Shown piece by piece: positions 4,009 through 42,880 of a DNA stretch of 64,000 bases; within the stretch, counting starts at the first letter, position 1; each line of letters opens with the position of its first letter. The notes beneath the pieces were generated by a model, which ran no database searches, had not been told where the DNA came from, and worked only from the letters and a program-made list of their open reading frames with translations. The position numbers and the translations under genes are program-made. This stretch comes from Glutamicibacter sp. JL.03c (GTDB lineage Bacteria > Actinomycetota > Actinomycetes > Actinomycetales > Micrococcaceae). Location: positions 2,666,001 to 2,730,000 of the forward strand of contig NZ_CP107575.1 of the NCBI RefSeq assembly GCF_025854375.1, read 5' to 3'.

Positions 4009-5067
4009 ATGACTTTGGAACCGACCAGAATCAGGCTCGCGCGGGAACGCGCGGCTTTGAGCCGGTCTGCCCTGGCCGCGTCCTTGGGCATCTGCGAGCG
4101 GGAACTGGCCCGGGCGCCGGAGCGGCTGGGCAATGACCTGGCTGACGCGCTCGGATGCACCCCGCGTTATTTCCACCTGCCTGCTGCCAATGGCATCGAT
4201 ACCGAACGCATTTTCTTCCGCAGTCCCCGGCGAACCAGCACCGCGCAGAAGCGGGCCGCTGCCGCTGTCGGCCGCACCGGCGTGGAGCTTTACCGCCTGA
4301 TCACGCAGAACTTCGCCTTGCCAGCCACCGAGGTGCCGGATCTGTCCGGATTTTCGCCGGTTGATGCGGCCGGGCAATTGCGCCTGGATTGGGGCCTGGG
4401 CTGCGGGGTGCTGCCCGATGTGCTGCACCTGCTCGAATCCCGCGGGGTGCGGGTGCTGAGCCTGCCGCCTGAACTCGATGCGGTGAAGACCTTCAGCTTC
4501 TGGGAGGATTCCCAGGCCTACATCTTCCTGGCCTCCGGGTCCGCGAAGGCCCGCCGTTTTGCCCTCGCCCACGAATTGGGGCACTTGCTGCTGCATTCAT
4601 CGCTGGGAGCAGGCAGCGAACAGGTAGCGGCCGCGGAACTGGAAGCCGATCACTTTGCCGCCCAGCTCCTGCTGCCGGCATTATCCTTGCAGATGCGGAT
4701 TTCCAATTCCCTGCAGATCCCGCAGCTGCTCACGCTCGAAGAACATTTCGGGGTGCCAGCCACGGTGATCCTGGCTCATAGCCGGGCCAGCGGCTTGCTG
4801 GGCGAAAAGGCCTACTGCTGGCTCTCACAGGAGATCGCGTTCGAAGCGCCGGCACCGGTAGAGCCGGTCACCTCCCGGGTCTTCTCGCTGGTCTTCCCTT
4901 CGCTGCAGCTGGAGCATCGGGCCAGCACCTCGGTGATCGCCCGCGAGCTGGGACTGCGCGAGGAGCACATCCATGAGCTGACGTTTGGGCAGGCCTTCGT
5001 CGTGCTGGGCGGCCAGAACCAGCAGGAGCCCGGCGAAATCCATCGCGGGCACCTGCGCGCGTTGTAG
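4009..5067 (+). CDS. XRE-type HTH / ImmA-IrrE metallopeptidase-like regulator
   Basis: This 352-residue protein has an N-terminal helix-turn-helix (about residues 5-60, RIRLARERAALSRSALAASL) joined to an ImmA/IrrE zinc peptidase domain. The zinc motif HELGH is at residues 188-192, with the downstream acidic ligand in ELEADHFAAQLLLP. Family members cleave repressors or act as short-chain acyl-CoA or stress regulators. The open frame continues upstream to 3859, but the upstream residues look non-coding and the ATG at 4009, preceded by GGAAG, gives the normal family N-terminus. There is no phage-like neighbour, so a chromosomal stress or metabolic regulator is more likely than a phage or ICE switch. 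No target is evident. Confidence 0.85.
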   Translation: MTLEPTRIRLARERAALSRSALAASLGICERELARAPERLGNDLADALGCTPRYFHLPAANGIDTERIFFRSPRRTSTAQKRAAAAVGRTGVELYRLITQNFALPATEVPDLSGFSPVDAAGQLRLDWGLGCGVLPDVLHLLESRGVRVLSLPPELDAVKTFSFWEDSQAYIFLASGSAKARRFALAHELGHLLLHSSLGAGSEQVAAAELEADHFAAQLLLPALSLQMRISNSLQIPQLLTLEEHFGVPATVILAHSRASGLLGEKAYCWLSQEIAFEAPAPVEPVTSRVFSLVFPSLQLEHRASTSVIARELGLREEHIHELTFGQAFVVLGGQNQQEPGEIHRGHLRAL

Positions 5068-5077
5068 CCAGCGCCCT

Positions 5078-6796
5078 TCAGGGCTCGACGATGTCAACGT
5101 CGAGCTGCCCTGCGCGCCATTGCGCGGTCATCCGCTGTGCCAGGTCCTCGGCGGCCAAAGCCTCTTCCGGCGTCATGAAATAGGTGTTGATCCGCAATTG
5201 CTGGTCGGGGTCCAGATCCGGCGGGAGCAAGACCATGGGCCGGCAGCCCGGGATTTTCACCGCGTGGAAGAGCCCGCAGTGGCGTTCTACGTGATGGACC
5301 GGGCAACACAGGGATGCCGAATGGATGTCGGTGCATCCGCCCTTCTCCCACGCGTCAAGATGGTCCAGTTCGCAGCGTTCGACGGGCATGGCGCAGCCCG
5401 GGTAGGCGCACCCGCGGTAGGCGGCGCGGATCGTCCGGCCCTGCGCCTTGGTGAACAGGCGCTGGGTTCGGCCCAAGTCAAGTGGCAGGGATCGGCCGTT
5501 GAGGATGACCGGGTAGATTCCGGCGTTGCACATGGCGGCGCGCAGTTCGCCCGGCGAGAAGCCGAGGCCCGAGGAGCTGACGGCATAGCGCGGCGCGCCA
5601 CTGAGCATTTTCTCGTAGTCCAGAATGATGCTGACTTGAGCGGTGGCCAGGCCGGCGCGGTTGGACTCCGCTGCGTTGTTCGCTCGGTGGTCTTTGAGCA
5701 GTAGTGCCATGAGGCCGATCAGCCGGCGCCGTTCGGGTTTCAGGTCTTCCCATGCGGGGGCTGGTTCGCCGGCAGCACCTGCGGTTCCGGCGGCATCCGG
5801 TTCGGCACCGGCCTCGGGGTCGGGTTGTGCGTCGGCGTCAGGTTCGGCGCCGAGGTCGGGATCCGGGCCGGGCGGGTCGGTATTGCCCTCGCGAGCCCAG
5901 TCGGGCTTGGTGGCTTCATCGTCCCAGCCCTCGCCCGGATCGCCGGTGAATTCACCCTCAGCTTCCTGCAGCCCCTGGCGGTCCCCGGCCTGGGTGGCCG
6001 GGTTGCCGGTGCTGGCGAAATGGGCCTCGATCGCCGCGGCTTGGGAAGGCAGAACGCGCAGGATGTATTCGATCAGCCCGCGGCGGGTGCCCCGGCGGAA
6101 CAGGCCGACCTCGTCCAGCAGCGCTTTGAGCGGACGCTTGCCGGCCTTGACCTGGGCGACCATGGTGGCGATGTGCTTGCGCGCGGATTTCGGTTCGCTG
6201 TGCATCAGCTGGCGGGCGTCGGACTGCAGGCGCTGCTTTTGTTCGGCGCCGGCCGCACCCGCCGGCAGGTCCTTGCGGGTGGAGTGCAGCTTCAGCGCGG
6301 TGGCGGCCAACAGACGCGGATCGAGGGCGGGATCGGCGAAGTCCTCGGCCAGATCCTCGAGCCAGGGTTCGGTGGGCGCCCCGGACTCATCCACCCCGCC
6401 GATCAGGCAGTCGGCCTGGATGAGCCGGTCGTGGGCGGTGCTGCGCGGAATATCCAGCCAGTCCTGCATGAAGGAGCGGGCCGAGCGGAAGGCGGTGCGC
6501 CCTGCGGTGGTGCGGCCTTCAGCGGCGGCGAAGTGGTCCATGGTGGGATCGGCGCCGGCCTGGGCGGCGGCGTGCAAGGAGGGCTGGTCGAGCTTGTGGG
6601 CACCGGTGCGGCGCAGCGCATGGGCGGCCTCGATCTGCGCGCGGGATTGCCCGGCACCCAGCGTTTCGAGCAGCAGGCCGAAGCATGCGGCATGGCCGGC
6701 GGAGAGTCCCGGGTCGCTGAGCGCAGCGGTAGCCGCGGCGAGAAGTTCGCTCGCGGCGGCCAGATTGGCCAGGGCTTGGGCGGTTGCTGTGCTCAT
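5078..6796 (-). CDS. DUF222 domain / HNH endonuclease signature protein
   Basis: This protein of about 572 residues has the DUF222 (13E12-type) domain in its N-terminal half and a C-terminal HNH motif. The HNH part is seen as CAYPGCAMPVERCELDHL followed by CCPVHHVERHCG. Between them lies an acidic Pro/Asp/Glu/Ala-rich linker (roughly residues 290-350). Such proteins occur in many copies in actinobacterial genomes, and their function is not established; a nuclease role is assumed from the HNH fold. The ATG at 6796 is preferred. An in-frame GTG five codons upstream (6811) is possible, and neither has a convincing ribosome site. It converges on the ImmA-type gene with only 10 bp between the stops. 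Confidence 0.88.
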   Translation of the reverse strand: MSTATAQALANLAAASELLAAATAALSDPGLSAGHAACFGLLLETLGAGQSRAQIEAAHALRRTGAHKLDQPSLHAAAQAGADPTMDHFAAAEGRTTAGRTAFRSARSFMQDWLDIPRSTAHDRLIQADCLIGGVDESGAPTEPWLEDLAEDFADPALDPRLLAATALKLHSTRKDLPAGAAGAEQKQRLQSDARQLMHSEPKSARKHIATMVAQVKAGKRPLKALLDEVGLFRRGTRRGLIEYILRVLPSQAAAIEAHFASTGNPATQAGDRQGLQEAEGEFTGDPGEGWDDEATKPDWAREGNTDPPGPDPDLGAEPDADAQPDPEAGAEPDAAGTAGAAGEPAPAWEDLKPERRRLIGLMALLLKDHRANNAAESNRAGLATAQVSIILDYEKMLSGAPRYAVSSSGLGFSPGELRAAMCNAGIYPVILNGRSLPLDLGRTQRLFTKAQGRTIRAAYRGCAYPGCAMPVERCELDHLDAWEKGGCTDIHSASLCCPVHHVERHCGLFHAVKIPGCRPMVLLPPDLDPDQQLRINTYFMTPEEALAAEDLAQRMTAQWRAGQLDVDIVEP

Positions 6797-33498: not shown

Positions 33499-34854
33499 CT
33501 AGCCGAGAACGAGCACTGCCACCGACAGGTAGACGATTAATCCCGCGGCATCGACAAAGGTGGAAATAAAGGGATTGGAAAACACCGCCGGATCGGCTTT
33601 GAAGAACTTCCCGAGGATCGGCATGGCTCCCCCGACGCCGGCAGCGATGCTGCACAACGCCACGAGCGTCATCCCGATGACTATTCCGACTTCCAGTTCA
33701 AAGACCACGCTGGTAACGAGGAAACCGATAGTTCCAAGGCACAGTCCAAGCATCGATCCAATGCGCACTTCCCTGAACAAGACGCGGCCCAGATCGCTCA
33801 CCCGGACATCGCCCATGGCCAAGGCCCGAGTGACGGTGGTCGCCGCCTGATTGCCGGTATTCCCTCCAATGCCGACAACCAGCGGGATGAACAAGCTCAA
33901 AACCACCATGGACTCCAAGGTCTGCTCGAAAGTGGCCAGCACCTGCACGGTGAGGATGGCCCCTATGGCAAGGACCAGCAGCCAGAGCACACGTGCTCGC
34001 ACCATTTTGACCAGCGGAGTTCCGAGGTAAGGACGGTACAACGGCTCGGAGCCCGCGCTTCTCGCGGTGCGTGATTCCTCAGCGTCTTGCAGCAGATCCA
34101 TGGCTTCGCCCAGTGGCAATACGCCAATCAGCCGTCCTTCGTTGTCAAGCACTGGCATGAGATCCAGAGGGCGCTCAACAGCGCGGCGAGCTGCCTCGGT
34201 GTCTGGCTGTGATGCCTGGGCGGTGGGAACCTCAAAAGCGATGCTCGAGATAAGCAGGTCCTGTGGCTGTCCGATGAGATCAGCTAGCCGCACTGCACCG
34301 ATGAATCGACGGGTGCGGTCAACCACCATGATGAGGTGGCAGTGTTCGGTTGCTCTCAGCTGCGGGGTGATGCGGTTCAGGGCCTGCCCGACGGTCAGTT
34401 CGGGATGCGTGGTAATGAACTGGGTGGACATCACCCGTCCCGTGCTTGAATCGTGATAGCCAAGCAGCACCCCGGTCGCCTTGCGCTGCTGCTTGTCCAA
34501 CCCGGCAAGCAGCCGAGTGGCGACGGCCGCTGGCAGCTCATCGAGCAGGGACACCCTATCCACGGGTTCCAGCGCCGCGAAAGCCTCGATCACGGTTGCC
34601 TGCTGGAGGGTCTCGATAAGTTCTGCTTGTACCGGGGCATCGAGGTTCTGGAAGAGCTCCAAGGAGCGGTCCTTGTCCAGCATGCGATAGAGCTTCGCGG
34701 CGTCGGCGATTTCCATGGCTTCAAACTGCTCGATGAGCCGCCCCAGTTCCAGGCCCCGCAAGGTGGTCGCTAGACGCTGGAAATCCCCTGTTGCGAGGCA
34801 GTGGCGGATTTCCTGAGAAGTAGTTGAAAAGTCTACGTATTCGAAGGTGAACAT
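33499..34854 (-). CDS. mgtE: Magnesium transporter MgtE
   Basis: This 451-residue Mg2+ channel has an N-terminal superhelical domain, then two CBS domains (RVMSTQFITTHPELTVGQAL and PLDLMPVLDNEGRLIGVLPLGEAMD). The C-terminal pore has five transmembrane segments with GIGGNTGNQAATTVTRALA, the conserved pore-lining motif. CBS and N-domains act as a Mg2+-sensing gate in characterised members. The gene has an unusually long upstream region (416 bp to the next gene) containing a candidate leader peptide. Confidence 0.93.
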   Translation of the reverse strand: MFTFEYVDFSTTSQEIRHCLATGDFQRLATTLRGLELGRLIEQFEAMEIADAAKLYRMLDKDRSLELFQNLDAPVQAELIETLQQATVIEAFAALEPVDRVSLLDELPAAVATRLLAGLDKQQRKATGVLLGYHDSSTGRVMSTQFITTHPELTVGQALNRITPQLRATEHCHLIMVVDRTRRFIGAVRLADLIGQPQDLLISSIAFEVPTAQASQPDTEAARRAVERPLDLMPVLDNEGRLIGVLPLGEAMDLLQDAEESRTARSAGSEPLYRPYLGTPLVKMVRARVLWLLVLAIGAILTVQVLATFEQTLESMVVLSLFIPLVVGIGGNTGNQAATTVTRALAMGDVRVSDLGRVLFREVRIGSMLGLCLGTIGFLVTSVVFELEVGIVIGMTLVALCSIAAGVGGAMPILGKFFKADPAVFSNPFISTFVDAAGLIVYLSVAVLVLG

Positions 34855-35035
34855 GATTATCGTCCAAACGGTTCGTTGTACGCAGATTCAAGTGCTCGCA
34901 AGCAACTGCCCACCGTTCTTCACCCCATTAATTGGATGATAAATCAGTCAGTGTTTGCGTGCATGAAAATGCGCATGCCAATAGCGGGTAGGCTACGAAC
35001 TCGCCGAATGTGCAGTTGTCCCGGTGCAGGAGAAA

Positions 35036-35104
35036 TCAGCTGGCGCGCGAAAAGATGATCTGGTGAGCTCGCAGATAGATAGATCGACCAGAACTGCCGT
35101 CCAT
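35036..35104 (-). CDS. Candidate 22-residue leader peptide upstream of mgtE
   Basis: A near-ideal Shine-Dalgarno AGGAGGT lies 8 bases before an ATG that opens a 22-codon frame beginning MDGSSGRSIYLRA and ending in TGA. The stop is 181 bp before mgtE, on the same strand. The ribosome site is part of GGTGAGCT, which can pair with AGCTCACC inside the frame (35062-35069 with 35107-35114), so translation and folding exclude each other. This resembles an attenuation leader. The peptide shows no run of a single amino acid, and no terminator hairpin is evident downstream. Confidence 0.45.
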   Translation of the reverse strand: MDGSSGRSIYLRAHQIIFSRAS

Positions 35105-35215
35105 GTAGCTCACCTCCTAGGAATCCGAAAACATGGATTCATGCTTCGTACAGTGCCAGTTCTATCAGAAACCCGATCCGAATAGCCAACAACAAGGGCA
35201 CATCTCACGTTAAAT

Positions 35216-35252
35216 GGCTTCGGGAGGCCGGATCTTCCGACCTCCCGAAGCC
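35216..35252 (-). terminator. Terminator of sdaA
   Basis: GGCTTCGGGAGG pairs perfectly with CCTCCCGAAGCC over a 13-base loop. It lies 19 bp beyond the sdaA stop. On the minus strand ATTTAAC follows it, a weak T-run. Confidence 0.8.
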
Positions 35253-35270: not shown

Positions 35271-36680
35271 CTAGCATTCGACCACGTTGACGGCCAATCC
35301 GCCCATCGCGGTCTCCTTGTACTTGTCGCTCATATCCTTGCCGGTTTCACGCATCGTGATGATCACTTCATCGAGGGTGACGTGATGTTCACCGTCACCC
35401 ATCAGGGCCATCTTCGCGGCGTTTACAGCCTTGGACGCAGCAATAGCATTGCGCTCGATGCATGGGATCTGCACCAGGCCGCCAATGGGATCACAGGTCA
35501 AACCCAGGTTATGCTCCATGGCGATCTCAGCGGCATTCTCTACCTGAGCCGGGGTTCCGCCCAGGACTTCAGCCAGGCCGGCAGCGGCCATCGACGAGGC
35601 TGAGCCCACTTCGCCCTGGCAGCCGACCTCCGCACCGGAAATAGAAGCCTGCTCCTTGTAAAGCACGCCCACCGCGCCGGCGGTCAGCAGGAAGTTCACG
35701 ACAGCATCGTGCTTCTCTTCTTCATTCCAGTACTTGGCACCAGGGGCATAGTGGGTAGCGTAGAACAAGACTGCGGGGATGATGCCAGCAGCTCCGTTGG
35801 TCGGCGCGGTAACTACGCGGCCGCCGGAAGCATTTTCCTCGTTCACTGCCAAGGCGACCAGGTTGATCCATTCCTGCCAATACACAGGATCACGGTCCTT
35901 GTCCTCCTTGCGCAGGCGCTCATGCCATTCCGGCGCGCGACGGCGCACCTTGAGCCCGCCGGGCAAAACGCCAGTACGCTCCAAAGCCGAATCCTTGCAG
36001 TCTTCCATCACCTGATAGATGTGGATCAGGCCTGAACGGATCTCTTCGCGGCTGCGATAGGCCAGCTCGTTGGCCATCATGATCTCTGCAATGGATTTGC
36101 CGGTGGACTGCGAATGTTCCAGCAACTGGGCTGCGGTGGTGAAGGGATAAGGCTGTTGCTGCAGCTTCTCCTCCAGGTTCTTCTCGATGCGCTCCTCGGC
36201 ACCTTCACGCACGATGAAGCCGCCGCCGACGGAGAAGAACGTCTCATTGACCAGCTCATTGCCCTGGGCATCCACAGCAACGAACTTCACGCCATTGGTG
36301 TGGCGCGGCAGCACGGTCAGCGGGTGCTGGATCATGTCGTTCACCGAGTAGTCCAGGTCTTTGCGCTGCCCTAGCTGGGCTGCCAGCCGCAGAACGCCGG
36401 TGCTTTCCATCTGAGCCAGTCGCTCATCGACCTGGGAAGGCAGAACCGTTTCGGGTTCGAATCCCTCGAGACCCAGCATGATGGCGGTGAAAGTTCCGTG
36501 CCCGCGACCAGTCGCGGCCAGAGAGCCGTAGACATCGACCCGGATACTATCCAGGGCATCCATCTTCTCTTCACGGAGTACTTGGGCGATGAACGCGTGC
36601 GCCGCACGCATTGGCCCCACGGTGTGGCTGGAGGAAGGTCCAATGCCAACCGAGAAAAGATCGAATACGCTTACCGCCAT
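35271..36680 (-). CDS. sdaA: L-serine ammonia-lyase (iron-sulfur type)
   Basis: This 469-residue single-chain L-serine dehydratase turns serine into pyruvate and ammonia. It has the N-terminal beta domain [21 protein letters not shown] and the catalytic alpha domain. The 4Fe-4S cysteines are in the regions [19 protein letters not shown] and [21 protein letters not shown]. The length fits the fused one-chain form. It stands downstream of the glycine-cleavage and glyA operon but behind its terminator, so it is its own unit. Functionally it drains serine made from glycine by GcvPTH and GlyA. Confidence 0.95.
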
Positions 36681-42684: not shown

Positions 42685-42880
42685 CCTGTTGCACAACCTG
42701 AGAGTTTTACACGTCCGGCCAACTAAGCCGGGCGCTTGCACCTTCGGTGAGCCGGGTCTGGCCGGCTACTTTCCAGAGTTGCCTCGTGATGGCGGTACGG
42801 GGGCCTGAGAGTTTCCTGGGGAGGAATTGCTCCTACGGCGCCCGTCCATGGTGTGAACGGGACTCTCCCGCCATCCGTCT
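42685..42880 (-). promoter_or_regulatory. Tandem glycine riboswitch
   Basis: On the minus strand two gcvT-type aptamers lie in tandem just upstream of gcvP. The first runs from GGGAGAGTCC through GCCGTAGGAGCAA to CAGGAAACTCTCAGGC. The second has CACCGAAGGTGCAAGCG and AAAACTCTCAGG. In each, the CTCTCAGG end strand and the GGTGCAA-type core are conserved. The two-aptamer layout is the classic glycine sensor that turns on glycine cleavage genes when glycine is plentiful. It should control the whole gcvPTH-glyA operon. Confidence 0.95.

Follow-up and report, generated by a model that had tools for sequence, protein, structure and literature searches.

The window analysed here, a stretch of 64,000 nucleotides from Glutamicibacter sp. 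JL.03c, carries on its minus strand an mgtE gene whose product matches TIGR00400 at 301.5 bits (cut-off 232.75) as well as the Pfam MgtE, MgtE_N and CBS domains; judged by these sequence matches, it is a bona fide MgtE. The gene sdaA ends at 35271, just ahead of a minus-strand region that runs to the mgtE start at 34854 and is the 5' leader of mgtE. Within this leader lies a short upstream open reading frame (uORF) of 22 codons and a stop, with its ATG at 35104-35102 and its TGA at 35038-35036, encoding the peptide MDGSSGRSIYLRAHQIIFSRAS; from the uORF start to the mgtE start is 250 nt (Table 1). A preliminary description of this DNA had correctly given the frame, its AGGAGGT Shine-Dalgarno (SD) sequence and its distance from mgtE on the same strand, while the spacing between the SD and the ATG is 7 bases and not the 8 reported there.

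Table 1. Features of the mgtE leader and its surroundings, in window coordinates.
Feature	Position	Strand	Remarks
Leader ORF (uORF)	35036..35104	-	22 codons plus stop, MDGSSGRSIYLRAHQIIFSRAS; genus conservation, held length
SD AGGAGGT of leader ORF, part of strand 1	35112..35118	-	
P1 5' arm GGTGAGCT, strand 1, overlapping SD	35107..35114	-	
P1 3' arm AGCTCACC, in-frame anti-SD, part of strand 2	35062..35069	-	
P2 5' arm CTGCGAGCTC, strand 2, overlapping P1 3' arm	35065..35074	-	
P2 3' arm GAGTTCGTAG, strand 3	34993..35002	-	
P0, possible small hairpin between codons 1-3 and codons 6-9, with a 7-nt loop and a bulged A	35079..35104	-	
Possible strand 4 ACGAACCGTTTGGACG, adjoining mgtE start; may pair with strand 3 (P3)	34861..34876	-	RNAalifold, 9 genus leaders
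Conserved TGATAGAACT, candidate extended -10 box of leader promoter	35158..35167	-	5 leading bases invariant, 16 aligned leaders
mgtE, magnesium transporter, 451 aa	33499..34854	-	TIGR00400, Pfam
Strong hairpin 3' of sdaA, between sdaA and mgtE leader	35216..35252	-	by-eye reading

Searches against family libraries give little purchase on this region. An Rfam search of the leader at gathering scores found neither an M-box nor any other family, and at E<=5 it returned only far sub-threshold matches to unrelated families; the loci of six relatives likewise gave no M-box or other RNA family in the leader. NCBIfam and Pfam gave no match to the uORF peptide. With a peptide and a leader that both go unmatched in these libraries, such leaders are easily missed. 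A promoter consensus scan called no promoter at the candidate -10 box, and a terminator scan gave no terminator call at the hairpin beyond sdaA. Two further observations concern the surroundings. Between strand 3 and mgtE, ACGCAAACACTGACTGATTTATC (34938-34960, minus strand) has only two variable columns among nine genus leaders. Elsewhere in the window, a glycine riboswitch aptamer (RF00504, 67.1 bits; 42783-42880, minus strand) precedes, on the same strand, two frames that by eye resemble gcvH and glyA, as well as sdaA.

Within the genus, the uORF accompanies every mgtE ortholog found. All 18 genus genomes searched with MgtE gave a match, and 17 of these matches are orthologs over nearly the whole length; G157, which has only a distant MgtE of a second type, falls outside the 17, and the second MgtE of G127 (L027) was excluded from the genus count, its upstream stretch showing no such frame by eye. 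Each of the 17 ortholog leaders (17/17) holds an SD-led short frame, of the kind expected of a uORF-controlled leader, that starts 248-268 nt ahead of the ortholog match, is 17-22 codons long, has 6-8 bases from GGAGGT to an ATG or GTG and encodes the core M[DE][DG][GS][SPR][SG]RS. In the wider family, a model built from sequence alone on the SD and the opening codons (R2) found matches in 61 of 295 genomes, spread over 6 of 32 genera; in the order it matched 7 of 297 genomes, namely five family members and two weak matches with no MgtE in the stretch fetched. An earlier model (R1) had matched 38 of 197 family genomes and, in the class, 2 of 296: the window's own genome and a stretch inside a frame that by eye is glycosyltransferase-like. 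The weak family matches in G508, G533, G070 and G017 all stand before mgtE, and inspection of 16 further mgtE leaders added the genera g22 and g4, bringing the genera with the uORF to 8 of 32. A strong MgtE (E below 1e-90) was found in 25 of 70 family genomes; 14 of the 25 have the uORF, and in the other 11 it was not seen within 520 nt of the match. In other families, none of the 20 mgtE leaders inspected, best matches first, had an SD-led MD[DE] frame within 520 nt.

A pattern scan returned 34 stretches labelled Glutamicibacter, Paeniglutamicibacter, Arthrobacter (one MAG), one Micrococcaceae MAG and one Sporosarcina scaffold. The leader 60-mer of L109 (NZ_JADHDY010000005.1, labelled Sporosarcina beigongshangi) is identical to that of L082, from a Micrococcaceae genome, and either the label looks wrong or the assembly looks mixed. 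In genus g13, locus L163 has, from about 597, MDDSPSPNISGADRIYSAPASLSR before mgtE, in which GGGGTGGAGT can pair with the in-frame ACTCCGCCCC; three other g13 members that were inspected showed no such frame.

The leaders collected in these ways amount to 52 distinct sequences, of which 16 belong to the genus, 31 come from other genera and have the core, and five are divergent. An MgtE frame lies downstream on the same strand in 52 of the 52, part of these loci having been fetched through MgtE and the others by R1, R2 or the pattern, all three of which are independent of mgtE. The exception to this link is a diverged second uORF copy in G. uratoxydans, which stands before another gene. At L165 (G202:C3, about 4967-5100), a diverged second uORF start, MDGEPSRSIC..., lies about 750 bp ahead of the copy in the mgtE leader and precedes a gene whose product resembles, by eye, a VOC/PhnB-type protein.

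The stem of eight base pairs that the preliminary description placed at the ribosome site is exact: GGTGAGCT pairs with AGCTCACC, and the 3' arm, the anti-SD, lies inside the frame. Could this helix, P1, be no more than the chance complement of an ordinary strong ribosome site, ahead of a short frame with no function? Single-sequence statistics are weak enough to allow it. In the window alone, the P1 duplex has p 0.125 against dinucleotide shuffles, which is not significant, the whole leader folds no better than its shuffles (z -0.51), and 8 of the 52 leaders reach p<0.05 for P1 when tested singly. Because P1 in single sequences is not beyond chance, the weight rests on comparison with relatives, and there the picture is different. 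The SD complement peaks in the windows that begin at +32, +36 and +40, counted from the ATG's A (-10.0, -9.4 and -8.5 kcal/mol), with the remaining window means for 38 leaders between -3.0 and -7.3 kcal/mol. Leaders pair better with their own anti-SD than with swapped ones, both for 24 leaders below 65% identity (-15.47 vs -13.23; 0/5000 permutations) and for 33 leaders below 80% identity (-15.92 vs -13.91; 0/5000 permutations), although swap tests of this kind overstate independence because related leaders cluster by clade. Finally, the mean SD/anti-SD energy of the 52 uORFs is -15.95 kcal/mol, as against -8.65 for 93 other SD-led frames of at least 150 codons from 34 named loci; the 17 SD-led frames of at least 150 codons in the window average -7.54. 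For position, covariation and frame length alike, conservation goes far past the controls, and a chance complement is for us a very improbable explanation. The check that the preliminary description had proposed, conservation across relatives, thus came out in its favour: SD, frame, frame length and stem are all kept, and the stem covaries.

The length of the frame is itself informative. In 41 non-redundant leaders the uORF has 17-36 codons (sd 4.1), whereas shuffling of the downstream bases gives a mean sd of 27.8, with none of 2000 shuffles as narrow or with so low a maximum. The other frames of the same leaders behave otherwise, the +1 frame running from 17 to over 100 codons and the +2 frame mostly ending after 4. 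So tight a length argues for translation, with a stop shortly past the anti-SD, and the uORF is very probably translated.

What, then, is held within the frame; is it the peptide or the RNA? Compared with the window's clade, L016, L017 and L020 have a 2-nt gap that changes the reading frame but leaves the RNA anti-SD in place, and this indicates that the RNA pairing, the open frame and its length are held, and not the C-terminal peptide. The leader-peptide switch of the preliminary description accordingly stands as regards the frame, the RNA pairing and the held length, but the peptide shows no conservation in its C-terminal half. The first codons are another matter. Early acidic residues of the MgtL and mgtQ type are found throughout, with D or E at position 2 in 52 of 52 uORFs versus 15 of 149 other SD-led frames, and [DE][DE] at positions 2-3 in 47 of 52 versus 1 of 149; the window's peptide, like its own clade (MDGSS), has only one such residue. 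A column-shuffle test for peptide selection gave 1, 1 and 3 of 300 at three redundancy levels, which is not proof of selection beyond the RNA, since conserved columns cluster through P0 too. In P0, a possible small hairpin, codons 1-3 can pair with codons 6-9 (RNAalifold), and this would explain a near-invariant AGTCGATCTA alongside variable loop codons 4 and 5; RNA pairing alone could fix the first codons without peptide selection. The pairs of P0 are kept in 29-39 of 39 sequences at eight of nine positions and in 15 of 39 at the outermost. We did not retain P0 as a covarying hairpin, as its pairing is consistent yet includes no double compensatory change, and its stability is not unusual, 35% of 93 ordinary start windows reaching the uORF mean.

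The preliminary description had one hairpin. A second helix, P2, absent from that account, would compete with P1, and it is this competition that makes the leader a switch rather than a single hairpin. The predicted arms of P2 are CTGCGAGCTC/GAGTTCGTAG in the window, CTGCGAGCTC/GAGTTCGCAG in L011, CTACGAGCTC/GAGTTCGTAG in L010 and ACGAACTC/GAGTTCGT in L003, and those of L018, CGCGAACCTCCG with CGGGGGTCTCGCG, are unrelated in sequence. Across 16 genus leaders, the best P2 partner starts 81-112 nt past the A of the ATG, and the mean P2 profile peaks about 152 nt before mgtE. Support for P2 in the genus comes from duplex energies: 12 genus leaders give -17.35 with their own strands versus -14.32 with swapped ones (0/5000), and control regions give 3922 and 1998 of 5000. 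For 23 leaders of other genera the values are -22.50 versus -21.07 (13/5000), with controls of 4734/5000 and, for an upstream stretch that is also low, 204/5000. All 31 non-genus core leaders with a wider target reach 4/5000, and the 20 non-genus leaders below 80% identity give a weaker 112/5000. A pair table for the 31 leaders has 11 pairs, 5 of them with compensatory changes, and 307 of 341 cells paired versus 291.4 (sd 2.2) after swapping, with 0/1000 as good, a result favoured by the structure having been drawn from the same alignment. An earlier table of 20 leaders had 11 pairs, 4 of them compensatory, and 200 of 220 cells paired (0/1000); these 20 are the 23-leader set plus L056 and L066 and minus L051, L058, L062, L068 and L131, five leaders with strand 3 elsewhere or in another pairing register. 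RNAalifold on the joined strands of 14 genus leaders returned 3 pairs unrelated to P2, a miss that we think is due to register shifts between clades.

Since P1 and P2 share bases of strand 2, they are mutually exclusive, and the leader is thus predicted to contain alternative helices that include uORF codons. Which of the two is folded depends on the stretch considered: of five genus leaders truncated at the mgtE start, four (L009, L010, L011 and L014) fold into P1, and when early mgtE codons are included the same leaders fold mostly into P2, because those codons pair with the uORF SD. Strand 1 (the SD), strand 2 (the uORF codons) and strand 3 together form what we take to be an attenuator architecture.

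We think it rather probable that the leader is a ribosome-gated uORF switch in which the choice of P1 or P2 sets mgtE expression, probably in response to Mg2+ and without an M-box. Our confidence is slightly lowered by the weaker P2 result for non-redundant leaders outside the genus and by the dependence of the fold on the stretch. As far as comparison of sequences can carry it, the frame, its length, P1, P2 and the link to mgtE are supported; Mg2+ would be the signal, the early acidic codons would act as a ribosome-stability sensor, and the output would lie at transcription. In P1, the anti-SD (codons 12-15) would close the ribosome site of the uORF; in P2, the overlapping codons 11-14 would pair with a strand 62 nt further on, leaving that site accessible. 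A ribosome that stalls or drops off early in the frame would cover strand 1 and leave strand 2 free, so that P2 would be favoured, and a ribosome reaching the stop codon would pass strand 2 and disrupt both helices. In other words, ribosome start and movement on the uORF would determine the choice of helix and thereby the level of mgtE expression. By analogy, P2 would be the mgtE-ON state, expected at low Mg2+, since the 2:3 helix is the ON state in Salmonella mgtQ and an open uORF is the ON state in the mycobacterial M-box model.

How would such a switch reach mgtE? RNAalifold on nine genus leaders predicts a 3:4 pairing (P3), by which the mgtE ribosome site might be hidden. Translational hiding of this kind gains no support here: swap tests of P3, strand 3 against the bases before mgtE, gave 313 and 439 of 5000, which is not significant, and in a folding model, moving the ribosome has no consistent effect on the predicted access to the mgtE start. 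A search for a conserved anti-SD to the mgtE SD gave no clear peak. A scan of the leader found no intrinsic terminator, and the leader has no clear rut-like C>G stretch, with C>G skew only around the anti-SD. Rho-dependent termination as the output is a guess on our part.

One could instead take the leader for a riboswitch, in which strand 3 and the hairpins before mgtE bind Mg2+ or another ligand and set P1 against P2, the uORF being the output only. Such a device would fit the conserved blocks of nine genus leaders, ACGCAAATACTGACTGATTTATC among them, for which RNAalifold predicts a long downstream hairpin, and it would fit GCACAC...CGTGTG and an SD hairpin in other genera. The leader has no Rfam match, however, the conserved blocks differ from genus to genus, and RNAalifold found no common aptamer-like downstream fold over whole groups, with no common pair shared by 15 genus leaders and only 6 shared by 23 leaders of other genera. 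We consider a ligand-binding leader quite unlikely.

The ribosome-gated switch draws its connection to Mg2+ in part from the rest of the family. A search with RF00380 matched 15 of 100 family genomes, with 19 M-box places in all, and gave no match in the window's own genome or in the four other genus members searched; the M-box core is thus indeed missing here, as the preliminary description had stated. An SD-led ORF of 13-38 codons lies 56-131 nt beyond 15 of the 19 M-boxes, and three of the 19 stand before mgtE, in G060 (g4), G017 (g18) and G092 (g21), with the ORFs MDEGPDRSTAAARAALRPS, MDDGPSPAPATTAGQRHPPAPGAAAT and MDDSRSTTWCGSRF..., respectively. The ORF of G060 matches M-box-free uORFs at 25 of 33 bases, and the ORF of G017, compared with M-box-free frames outside its genus, reaches at most 24 of 33. 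Within g18 itself, G017 has an M-box, and G046 and G070 have the uORF before mgtE with no M-box match. Pairing of SD and anti-SD is not general in the M-box ORFs, 4 of 15 reaching p<=0.013, three of those near-identical. Because other genera have a related short ORF downstream of a Mg2+ aptamer, Mg2+ is the likeliest signal here; we infer Mg2+ control of the leader from MgtE itself and from the succession of M-box, short ORF and mgtE in these three genera. Additionally, many short ORFs at the M-box loci L227-L245 are of the type MSSG[DH]..P.PA or MSSGDSSPSPHT, and the M-boxes there precede mgtE (3) and other genes; perhaps there is a wider class of M-box-linked leader ORFs in Micrococcaceae.

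Tentatively, it is possible that the uORF platform, found behind an M-box in other genera of the family, works alone in Glutamicibacter, Paeniglutamicibacter and part of Arthrobacter, the downstream strand replacing the competing strand of the aptamer, and ribosomes slowed or lost at the early acidic codons at low Mg2+ serving as the sensor. A rival account, which strikes us as unlikely, is that what has been conserved is a platform left behind by a lost M-box, and that its uORF and anti-SD now answer a signal other than Mg2+ that alters the initiation or elongation of translation, for instance translation stress, the supply of ribosomes or another ligand. A lost M-box would fit its absence from the window genome and four genus members and its presence before a short ORF and mgtE in three genera, and it would fit the mixed membership of g18 and the bases that the uORF of G060 shares with M-box-free uORFs. 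A change of signal sits poorly with the fact that 52 of 52 uORFs stay with a Mg2+ transporter gene, and it gains nothing from the tests here, which do not separate Mg2+ from other signals.

The uORF mgtQ, in the mgtC-mgtB intergenic region of Salmonella, has, like the uORF described here, a strong AGGAGG, early acidic codons and a Mg2+ transporter gene downstream, and its alternative stems, 1:2 with 3:4 versus 2:3, may be likened to the helix exchange proposed here; destabilisation of ribosomes at Asp2 and Glu5 favours the 2:3 helix, which releases the ribosome site of mgtB (PMC8092293). It differs in belonging to another phylum, in preceding mgtB rather than mgtE, in having 8 codons versus 17-36 here, in lying inside an operon and in that its 3:4 helix hides the mgtB ribosome site, whereas 3:4 is unsupported in the present leader (PMC8092293). 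We claim no homology. In E. coli, MgtL of mgtA shares early acidic residues, a Mg2+ transporter gene and, as is proposed here, a choice of RNA fold by uORF translation, but it has EPDP and controls Rho access, and the present peptides begin MD[DE], MED or MDG (PMC11282234).

The author of the preliminary description knew of no such leader before mgtE in Actinobacteria, and this was too strong: work on mycobacteria describes M-box leaders with a conserved uORF (PMC12810186), and the M-box, short ORF and mgtE found within the same family speak against it as well. In the leader of pe20 of Mycobacterium tuberculosis, an actinobacterial leader of a Mg2+ gene, an exchange of SD, anti-SD and anti-anti-SD gates the uORF as is proposed here, with an M-box aptamer before the uORF; here there is no M-box, and the strand that would free the SD lies downstream of the anti-SD (PMC12810186). 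In the mycobacterial M-box model, an open uORF SD accompanies expression, and mycobacterial M-boxes include a class located upstream of genes like mgtE (PMC12810186). Closer to hand, the Micrococcaceae leaders of G060, G017 and G092 have an M-box, an SD-led MD[DE] ORF and mgtE in a row, and the window genome differs in having no M-box. The mgtE motif of Thioalkalivibrio is also a candidate structured RNA upstream of mgtE, but it is a riboswitch candidate described for that genus only, and the base of its P4 stem contains the gene's SD and AUG (PMC11109978). In the open literature we recognised no report of the present leader; most subscription papers and preprints are outside that coverage. 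A uORF with alternative stems before a Mg2+ transporter gene is therefore known, and what sets the present leader apart is the phylum, the transporter, the absence of an M-box and the position of the competing strand downstream.

If the ribosome-gated switch is true, a group of soil bacteria would control a Mg2+ channel gene by an RNA switch that is read by the ribosome, while relatives in the same family use an M-box before a related ORF. The family would then offer a natural series for the loss or gain of an aptamer with the uORF platform kept, and for the question whether ribosome stability gauges Mg2+ outside the enterobacteria. If the platform does work without an aptamer, it would be a parallel to the enterobacterial mgtQ and mgtL in another phylum and with another transporter family.
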